From: Rhizobium sp. CCGE531
GTDB lineage: Bacteria > Pseudomonadota > Alphaproteobacteria > Rhizobiales > Rhizobiaceae
Assembly: GCF_003627795.1 (NCBI RefSeq)
Contig: NZ_CP032684.1
Location: 6,001-70,000 of the forward strand
Length of the DNA: 64,000 bases
Direction: 5' to 3'
Below the pieces are notes generated by a model. That model had not been told where the DNA came from, made no database searches, and worked only from the letters and a program-made list of their open reading frames with translations. Shown here in pieces: positions 33,107-35,382 of this stretch. A program made the translations under genes and the position numbers. Every line of letters begins with the position of its first letter. The first letter of the stretch is position 1.

Positions 33107-34507
33107 TCAGTATCTGTAGTGGTCGGACTTGAACGGGCCCTTCGGCGTCACGCCGATATACGATGCCTGCTCGTCGGAAAGCTCCGTCAGTTTGACGCCG
33201 AGCTTGGCGAGATGCAGGCGGGCGACCTTTTCATCGAGGTGCTTCGGCAGCACGTAGACCTGGTTCTGGTAGTGGCCGGGCTTAGTGAAGAGCTCGATCT
33301 GCGCCAGCGTCTGGTTGGTGAAGGAAGCCGACATGACGAAGGACGGGTGGCCGGTGGCGTTGCCGAGGTTCAAGAGGCGGCCTTCCGACAGCAGGATGAT
33401 GCGGTTGCCCTTGGCGAACTCGACCATGTCGACCTGCGGCTTGATGTTCGTCCACTTCAGGTTACGCAGAGCGGCAACCTGGATCTCATTGTCGAAGTGG
33501 CCGATGTTGCCGACAATCGCCATGTCCTTCATCGCACGCATGTGGTCGATGCGGATGACGTCCTTGTTGCCGGTCGTGGAGATGAAGATGTCGGCGCTGG
33601 AGACGACGTCTTCGAGCTGGACGACTTCGTAGCCGTCCATGGCAGCCTGGAGCGCGCAGATCGGATCGACTTCCGTGACCTTGACGCGGGCGCCGGCGCC
33701 GGAAAGCGAAGCGGCCGAACCCTTGCCGACGTCGCCATAGCCGCAGACGACGGCGACCTTGCCGGCCATCATGACGTCGGTGGCGCGGCGGATGCCGTCA
33801 ACCAGCGATTCCTTGCAGCCATACTTGTTGTCGAACTTCGACTTGGTGACGCTGTCGTTGACGTTGATGGCCGGGAAGGGCAGCAGCCCCTTCTGGCTGA
33901 GCTGGTAGAGGCGGTTGACGCCGGTGGTGGTTTCTTCCGTCACGCCCTTGATGGCGTCGCGCTGCTTGGTGAACCAACCCGGCGAAGCCTGCAGGCGCTT
34001 GTTGATCTGGGCGAAGAGGATTTCCTCTTCTTCCGAATGCGGATGGGAGAGCACGTCCTCGCCGGCCTCGGCGCGGGCGCCGAGCAGGATGTACATCGTG
34101 GCGTCGCCGCCGTCATCGAGGATCATATTGGACAGGCGACCATCGGCCCACTGGAAGATCTTGTCCGTGTAGATCCAGTAGTCCTCAAGGCTTTCGCCCT
34201 TGATGGCGTAAACCGGAACGCCGGAAGCAGCGATCGCGGCAGCGGCATGATCCTGGGTCGAGAAGATGTTGCAGGATGCCCAGCGGACTTCGGCACCGAG
34301 TGCCACCAGCGTCTCGATGAGAACGGCTGTTTGAATCGTCATGTGCAGCGAGCCGGTGATGCGCGCGCCCTTCAGCGGCTGCGCTTCGCCGAATTCGGCG
34401 CGGCAGGCCATCAGGCCCGGCATCTCGGTTTCGGCGATCGTGATTTCCTTGCGGCCGAAGTCGGCAAGGCCGATATCCGCGACGACGTAGTCCTTCTCAG
34501 TGCTCAT
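33107..34507 (-). CDS. ahcY: S-adenosylhomocysteine hydrolase
   Basis: 466 residues, normal for bacterial AhcY. Substrate site [40 protein letters not shown]-binding [15 protein letters not shown] (about 240-254), and C-terminal [14 protein letters not shown] and KSDHYRY. It splits SAH to adenosine and homocysteine, keeping methyltransferases from product inhibition. The start is the ATG at 34507 with GGAG about 8 bp upstream. The leader is long, structured and preceded by a dyad operator (separate entries). Confidence 0.99.
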
Positions 34508-34515
34508 GAAAGTCT

Positions 34516-34622
34516 CCAGCCTGAACGATGCAGCCGCGCCTGGGCAAACGCCTCGGCCGAATGCAACAAAATTGCACGCTGACAGCGTGTGGGATGATGC
34601 CGTGTAGCAGGCTTCAGGCTGG
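34516..34622 (-). ncRNA. Structured ahcY leader with long-range pairing next to the ribosome site
   Basis: Perfect 10-bp complementary arms CCAGCCTGAA (34516-34525) and TTCAGGCTGG (34613-34622) close a domain of about 107 nt. Inside are hairpins CACGCT-GAC-AGCGTG (34575-34589) and the overlapping TGCAA/TTGCA (34562-34576), which cannot form together. On the mRNA the 3' arm ends in the GG of the GGAG ribosome site, 8 nt before the ahcY ATG. It does not match the SAH riboswitch consensus as I know it. Cis-regulation is inferred. Confidence 0.5.
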
Positions 34623-34634
34623 AAATCAATGACG

Positions 34635-34654
34635 ACATAAAGAAGTCTTTATGT
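34635..34654. promoter_or_regulatory. Dyad operator upstream of ahcY
   Basis: ACATAAAGAAGTCTTTATGT has 9-bp arms symmetrical about a 2-bp centre, and the half-site recurs just beyond it (GTCTTTAT, 34653-34660). ArsR-family regulators that sense SAM or SAH (SahR, SamR) control ahcY and met genes in proteobacteria, so this is a plausible site for one. I do not recall the exact consensus, and the regulator gene is not in the window. It may also act as a weak hairpin at the end of ptsH. Confidence 0.6.
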
Positions 34655-34685
34655 CTTTATATCCCGGCAGTGGCCGGAGGAAAAC

Positions 34686-34961
34686 TTACATTTCCTCGCC
34701 GAACTTGTCGGCCACCAGCTGGTCGAGCGCATCGATGGCTTCGGCGGCCTGATTGCCGCTTGCCGTCACCAGCACGCTGCAGCCCGGGCTGGCGGCCAGC
34801 ATCATCAGGCCCATGATCGAATTGCCGCCGACCGTGGTGCCGTCCTTCGAGACGGTGATGGCGGCGTCGTACGCTTCGACGGTCTGGACGAATTTTGCCG
34901 AGGCACGGGCGTGCAGGCCCCGTTTGTTGATGATCAGGAGTTCCCGGGAAAGCTCGGTCAT
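34686..34961 (-). CDS. ptsH: HPr phosphocarrier protein (PTS-Ntr)
   Basis: 91 residues from the ATG at 34961 (MTELSRELLIINKRGLHAR). His17 in RGLHARAS is the site phosphorylated from enzyme I, and Ser48 in GGNSIMGLMML is the target of HprK. It lies 19 bp after the EIIA gene. No sugar permease (EIIB/EIIC) is present, so it acts as a regulatory phosphorelay rather than in sugar uptake, as known for alphaproteobacteria. Confidence 0.96.
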   Translation of the reverse strand: MTELSRELLIINKRGLHARASAKFVQTVEAYDAAITVSKDGTTVGGNSIMGLMMLAASPGCSVLVTASGNQAAEAIDALDQLVADKFGEEM

Positions 34962-34980
34962 GGGGGCGGTGTTTGCCTCG

Positions 34981-35382
34981 TTATTTGCCACTGAGCACAC
35001 GGCTGGCCACATTGATATATTTGCGTCCGGCCTCTGAAGCTTCCACCAGGGCCCTTTCCATGTTGTTGTCGCCGCGCACGCCCGCGAGCTTGATCAGCAT
35101 CGGCAGATTGACGCCCGCGATGACCTCGGTGTGGCCGCTATTCATGACGGAGATTGCGAGATTGGAAGGAGTGCCGCCGAACATGTCGGTGAGGATGATG
35201 ACGCCATGCCCGTCGTCGGCGCCGGCAACGGCCTGCAGAATGTCCTGCCGCCGCTTGTCCATGTCGTCTTCGGGACCAATGCATACCGTCTCTATGAACT
35301 TCTGCGGACCAACGACATGCTCGACGGCATGCCGAAACTCTTCAGCCAGCTTGCCATGAGTGACAAGCACAAGTCCAATCAT
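34981..35382 (-). CDS. manX: PTS mannose-type EIIA component, regulatory
   Basis: 133 residues from the ATG at 35382 (MIGLVLVTHGKLAEEF). His9 in VTHGKL is the phosphorylation site, and ILTDMFGGTPSNLA is the second family motif. With HPr and HprK it forms the incomplete PTS of rhizobia, reported to affect carbon metabolism and ChvG/ChvI-related regulation. The 151-bp gap to hprK may hold its own promoter. Confidence 0.94.
   Translation of the reverse strand: MIGLVLVTHGKLAEEFRHAVEHVVGPQKFIETVCIGPEDDMDKRRQDILQAVAGADDGHGVIILTDMFGGTPSNLAISVMNSGHTEVIAGVNLPMLIKLAGVRGDNNMERALVEASEAGRKYINVASRVLSGK

Follow-up and report, generated by a model that had tools for sequence, protein, structure and literature searches.

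Known systems for the control of ahcY

The described system closest to the locus treated here is the SahR regulon of Alphaproteobacteria. The passages of Leyn et al. 2014 (PMC4239095) that deal with SahR place ahcY in the core regulon, record a SahR regulon for 11 of the 15 Rhizobiales genomes, and describe the SahR operator as a 20-bp palindrome. SahR control of ahcY has thus already been described for Rhizobiales, and the control that we propose below is of a known kind, its essential parts being known as well.

RNA elements acting on the same pathway form the second group of comparable systems. In its passages on riboswitches, PMC4239095 assigns the SAH riboswitch to gamma and beta groups, and the relevant parts of PMC4239095 and PMC2864571 place SAM/SAH and SAM-II/SAM_alpha sites before metK (in Rhodobacterales) and before metY/metA/metX; ahcY of Chlorobi is covered in a part of PMC2864571. 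Judged by titles or passages of the literature searched, an RNA element before rhizobial ahcY was not found described.

The ahcY locus and the leaders compared

The window, that is, the whole 64-kb stretch of DNA that was analysed, lies in a 7.1-Mb genome. On its minus strand, a ptsH-like gene is followed by a 178-nt intergenic stretch and then by ahcY:

34686 to 35012, minus strand: ptsH-like gene (HPr; TIGR01003, 93.1 bits, cut-off 47.9)
33107 to 34507, minus strand: ahcY, adenosylhomocysteinase (TIGR00936, 597.7 bits, cut-off 497.6)

The coordinates of the ptsH-like gene are those of the listed open reading frame, and the real start is probably located further inside. We consider it highly probable that positions 34508-34685 hold a SahR-controlled ahcY promoter and a short 5' UTR, with an inverted repeat that is there by coincidence. 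The operator, the regulon, the promoter layout and the lack of covariation, on which this reading is based, were derived from sequence; SahR, its effector and ahcY as its target were taken from papers.

AhcY is present in 147 of the 148 genus genomes searched, and leaders were read from 84 of these 147. We dropped identical upstream regions as well as L026, which belongs to another family and in which the operator pattern was not found, and compared 83 distinct Rhizobium leaders, namely, 41 in group A (near the window) and 42 in group B. Further 120 loci came nearly all from other genera. Four Rhizobium loci among them (L139-L142) were dropped, as they would duplicate the groups, and 76 of the 116 others could be parsed for operator and promoter; the 40 loci that did not fit this operator-plus-promoter pattern are mostly from Rhodobacterales. 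Also dropped were L099 (-10 element without TG), L169 (contig ends early) and L191.

No Rfam family scores over threshold in the whole window, and at 34400-34800 just two chance-level matches came up when E-values up to 10 were admitted. The known SAH (RF01057), SAM/SAH and SAM-II riboswitch classes were rejected on this ground, since none of their Rfam covariance models gave a match. A preliminary description of this leader had likewise stated that it does not fit the SAH riboswitch consensus.

SahR operator and regulon

Upstream of the promoter described in the next section we found a dyad and an additional half-site:

34635 to 34654: SahR operator, 20-bp dyad ACATAAAGAAGTCTTTATGT, core ATAAAGA NN TCTTTAT
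34654 to 34660, minus strand: extra half-site ATAAAGA, upstream of the dyad and 8 bp from its first half-site

The dyad, which had been noticed before as a 20-bp element, is present, and it can be extended by one base on each side (9+4+9 bp, 34634-34655). It is the published SahR operator. The operator core is kept in all 83 Rhizobium leaders, a set that was chosen by that motif. Elsewhere in the genome, the core ATAAAGANNTCTTTAT recurs with 0 mismatches at two more sites besides ahcY (sahR-metF and metH), and copies with one mismatch precede metK and bhmT, giving a total of five operators with at most one mismatch. When up to two mismatches were allowed, the genome scan returned 10 sites for the operator pattern vs 12 for its reversed control; therefore, two-mismatch matches carry no meaning. 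The metH and metF pieces score under the curated cut-offs because the sequence pieces are partial.

The SahR-like protein (L094) combines an HTH_5 domain (53.3 bits) with a Methyltransf_11 domain (88 bits), is encoded next to metF and has its own operator, and near full-length relatives of it occur in 56 of the 61 family genomes. A methyltransferase domain fused to the regulator is presumably a trait of SahR; among the matches listed for this protein, no model is named SahR. Just upstream of the sahR operator lie two identical tandem ORFs of 158 aa (L094, 1699-2175 and 2320-2796), the scanned copy of which is an IS200/IS605-family transposase (NF033573).

The known SahR site, the SahR-like protein and the four further operators at SAM-cycle genes support the ArsR-type (SahR-like) control that the preliminary description had offered as one part of its proposal. 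Transcription of ahcY is thus most likely controlled in response to SAH. As for the extra half-site, ATAAAS is found at its position in 81 of the 83 Rhizobium leaders and in 27 of the 76 leaders of other genera, and it might be the seat for a second dimer.

Promoter and predicted transcription start

Downstream of the operator the leader contains the following putative promoter elements:

34625 to 34630, minus strand: -35 element, ATTGAT (TTG in 83 of 83 Rhizobium leaders)
34608 to 34624, minus strand: 17-nt spacer, which holds the entire 5' arm of the inverted repeat
34602 to 34607, minus strand: -10 element, CTACAC, with TG before it
34595, minus strand: predicted ahcY +1 (first -10 base plus 12), giving an 88-nt 5' UTR

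Group A leaders share the promoter ATTGAT-N17-CTACAC and group B leaders ATTGCC-N17-CTAAAC, with few variations. The first half of the spacer is the most variable part, and the second half, GAAGCCTG, is conserved within Rhizobium. The distance from the end of the operator core to the -10 element is 29 nt in all 83 distinct Rhizobium leaders, and 28 or 29 nt in 73 of the 76 parsed leaders of other genera. In 72 of the latter 76, the T of TTG is located 22 nt before the -10 element, as read by a parser that required TTG and TGNTA and permitted five spacings. Compared with the rhizobial sigma-70 consensus CTTGAC-N17-CTATAT, as given in parts of PMC2573895 and PMC2873474, the promoter in the window differs at 4 of the 12 positions and has equal spacing; ahcY and SMc02755 are not named in the pertinent passages of PMC2873474. 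A simple scan for E. coli-type promoters detected none at the ahcY leader. From this conserved layout, the predicted start of ahcY transcription lies near 34595, past the 5' arm; the preliminary description had itself named a start in this region as one that would remove the arm from the RNA and speak against the switch.

The operator sits upstream of the -35 element, which is not the plainest position for a repressor. In the window genome, the metK operator likewise precedes a CTTGTT element, so this arrangement is not peculiar to ahcY. In the mechanism that we propose, SahR, an ArsR-type repressor, would bind the dyad, which adjoins the -35 element and has its centre some 50 bp upstream of the predicted +1, and would presumably repress from there. 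RNA polymerase would use ATTGAT-N17-CTACAC and start near 34595. A rise in SAH would make SahR release the operator, ahcY would be made, and SAH would be removed. The ahcY mRNA made at the SahR promoter would then not contain the 5' arm of the repeat.

Two genomes differ in what precedes this unit. In G013, the stretch between ptsH and the ahcY operator (L011, 1766-2467) holds a divergent GST-family gene, and operator, promoter, leader and ahcY are still together despite the inserted gene. In G018, an intervening stretch (C1, 39259-40707) likewise parts the end of ptsH from the ahcY leader. That ptsH is separated while the leader stays with ahcY fits ahcY having its own promoter in 34508-34685.

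The 5' UTR also varies in length. In some group B leaders (L016, L018, L020-L023, L067, L072, L074, L075 and L082), about 196-201 nt separate the -10 element from the ATG, against 68-98 nt in most other leaders, and these long leaders look as if a GC-rich stretch had been inserted in the 5' UTR. A possible leader peptide was considered by eye. The group B leaders L017, L012, L016 and L018 have an ATG near the predicted +1, and in some of these leaders its frame reaches or enters the ahcY start; no early ATG with a frame toward ahcY was seen in the window or in the group A leaders inspected in the same way.

The long inverted repeat

The preliminary description reported a perfect 10-bp long-range inverted repeat, the 3' arm of which touches the GGAG of ahcY, and suggested that the leader may be an RNA switch through which a ligand or a stalled ribosome controls translation. 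The repeat is indeed present, in fact with 11 bp, and its 3' arm runs into the GGAG:

34613 to 34623, minus strand: 5' arm, 11 bp, a DNA feature in the promoter spacer
34515 to 34525, minus strand: 3' arm, overlapping the Shine-Dalgarno GGAG (34514-34517)

When the 128-nt sequence that follows the operator was shuffled 400 times with its dinucleotides preserved, a repeat of at least 10 bp occurred twice. Such a repeat is uncommon for one leader, yet this one was selected from a 64-kb window. The predicted fold of the leader is more stable than those of shuffled sequences (z = -5.76 for 181 nt including the operator dyad, and z = -3.99 for 123 nt without the dyad). At least nine of ten stem pairs can form in 35 of the 41 group A leaders (all 10 pairs in 12 leaders, 9 in 23, 8 in 4, and 6 in 2), and 90.5% of the cells pair. 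The perfect repeat extending to the GGAG, the stable fold, the pairing in group A and the two overlapping hairpins described in the next section would all suit a cis-regulatory RNA that masks the ribosome site in a stem of 10-11 bp and acts in combination with SahR.

However, the covariation check of the 10-bp stem on the 41 related leaders revealed no compensatory pair: none of the ten pairs is altered on both sides among the 38 distinct rows of group A, the pair at columns 12/120 is broken in 22 of these 38 rows, and the covariation score of the stem equals the shuffled mean. The sequence TTCAG[GC]CTGGAG at the 3' arm hardly varies within Rhizobium and does not follow the sequence of the 5' arm, and within group A the 3' arm is nearly unchanging while the 5' arm drifts; the retention of the stem in group A can be ascribed to the conserved letters of the promoter and the ribosome site. 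Group B, the rest of the genus sample, is unable to form the stem, just 4-7 of the ten pairs being possible in its 42 leaders. Nor do the arms match their own partners better than swapped ones, with means of 6.71 v 6.67 in group A (116 of 300 permutations as high) and 3.79 v 3.85 in group B (287 of 300 permutations as high). Furthermore, with this promoter layout the 5' arm comes before the predicted start in 83 of 83 Rhizobium leaders. We therefore rejected a riboswitch or translation switch on the long stem, which has no compensatory change and the 5' arm of which lies in the promoter spacer, and struck the candidate riboswitch from the list; with no Rfam match in its favour either, a cis-regulatory RNA acting along with SahR deserves hardly any credence.

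In the 76 leaders of other genera, the spacer and the ribosome-site region are slightly more complementary to each other than in swapped pairs, with a mean run of 4.41 v 4.08 (0 of 300 permutations as high). When one leader was kept per spacer cluster, 0, 63, 54, 120 and 292 of 400 permutations were as high at tightening cut-offs, and clustering on both segments gave 3-6 of 400. This excess is small, at roughly one third of a base pair. Since the matched stretches sit at differing places, they are not taken here for a single conserved stem.

The stem would form in a longer RNA. The ptsH-like gene lies directly upstream on the same strand, and a scan of 34450-34760 lists nothing terminator-like on the minus strand in the interval from ptsH to the promoter. 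It is therefore conceivable that a minority of longer transcripts, arising by read-through from ptsH, form the stem and lower the translation of ahcY, so that the mRNA from the SahR promoter alone is well translated. However, as the stem is lost in group B and does not covary, such an effect could be local at most, and in a read-through RNA the operator dyad would itself be a strong hairpin. We regard this explanation as quite improbable. If the stretch is a SahR-controlled promoter with a short 5' UTR, the inverted repeat is most likely there because the promoter spacer happens to match the conserved ribosome site. A stable and perfect inverted repeat beside a ribosome site can thus mislead, one of its arms being promoter.

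Small hairpins near the predicted 5' end

Two small hairpins lie downstream of the predicted start:

34575 to 34589, minus strand: 5'-proximal stem-loop CACGC-TGTCA-GCGTG, beginning at predicted mRNA position +7
34562 to 34576, minus strand: second hairpin TGCAA-TTTTG-TTGCA, with a two-base overlap with the first

They had been described as mutually exclusive. Both exist, but as they share two bases, they are exclusive only at full length. The second hairpin retains all 5 pairs in 37 of the 41 group A leaders and displays no clear covariation. In the 5'-proximal stem-loop, 97.4% of the cells are paired, and two pairs are changed on both sides, in one sequence each. A terminator scan flags 34589-34575 as terminator-like; an intrinsic terminator was rejected here, since it would end transcription 21 nt past the predicted start.

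The position of the 5'-proximal stem-loop is kept across Rhizobium, and its sequence is varied: a 5-bp stem starts at +4 to +11 in 81 of the 83 Rhizobium leaders, with arms as different as CACGC/GCGTG, CCGCG/CGCGG, CGTGC/GCACG and GGCGC/GCGCC. The stems were compared by script, and no counts were drawn from a whole-genus MAFFT alignment of the hairpin region, in which the stems were out of register. With the reservation that related leaders are not independent and that all positions hang on the predicted start, 22 of the 25 non-redundant Rhizobium leaders have a 5-bp stem that begins no more than 1 nt from +6 (4.7 expected), and 23 have one that begins no more than 1 nt from +7 (4.8 expected). 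Under the same reservation, the corresponding counts in other genera are 22 of 68 and 22 of 67 leaders (11.0 and 12.1 expected), a minority, and 13 of 68 and 15 of 67 for 6-bp stems (5.0 and 4.1 expected). The fold z-scores of 28-nt windows agree with this: over 67 leaders from other genera, they average -1.01 at +6 and are mostly near 0 beyond. Smaller excesses of stems are seen near -13, -7, +16 and +32 in Rhizobium, and near -24, -16 and +20 in other genera. The leaders of sahR leave insufficient room to serve as a control for the 5' stem-loop.

As the sequence is free to vary in both stem and loop, a plain stem-loop at the 5' end is more likely than an aptamer. The ompA mRNA carries a stabilising stem-loop at its 5' terminus, and the 5'-proximal stem-loop of ahcY may similarly protect the 5' end of its mRNA. 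A reading in which selection has kept this stem-loop at +7 rather than the long stem, and in which it acts without a ligand as a shield against 5'-end decay or on early elongation, is compatible with the SahR-controlled promoter. The fixed position of the stem-loop, the surplus of 6-bp stems in other genera and the differing stem sequences argue for it, whereas the excesses elsewhere, the minority share in other genera, the predicted nature of the start and the relatedness of the sequences weigh against this reading; on balance, we hold it to be possible but rather doubtful. Somewhat more tentative still is the general form of this idea, in which the ahcY mRNAs of Rhizobiaceae would carry a selected 5' stem-loop, rewritten in place, that sets mRNA lifetime or early elongation as a ligand-free layer atop SahR. 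We treat the excess of 5'-proximal stem-loops as a lead. The promoter and operator layout of ahcY is now given across the sampled Rhizobiaceae.

Comparison with known systems

The SAH riboswitch also controls ahcY, but differs from the leader described here in that the latter has no Rfam match and that its proposed stem is unconserved, half of it being promoter. The SAM/SAH riboswitch (RF01727) and the SAM-II/SAM_alpha elements of Alphaproteobacteria act in the same pathway and occur in the same bacterial class; unlike them, the ahcY leader has no match in Rfam. With 5' stem-loops of the ompA type, the 5'-proximal stem-loop shares its short length, its location a few nucleotides from the mRNA start and a position that matters more than the sequence, whereas the ahcY stem-loop is placed by a predicted start. 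From the SahR regulon of Alphaproteobacteria (PMC4239095; for Ensifer aridi sahR, PMC8877191) we found no distinguishing difference, the third half-site seen in Rhizobium being unmentioned in the passages of these two papers concerned with SahR. As in that regulon, a 20-bp palindromic operator precedes ahcY, the targets comprise sahR, metF, metH, metK and bhmT, and an ArsR-type regulator is encoded in the genome.
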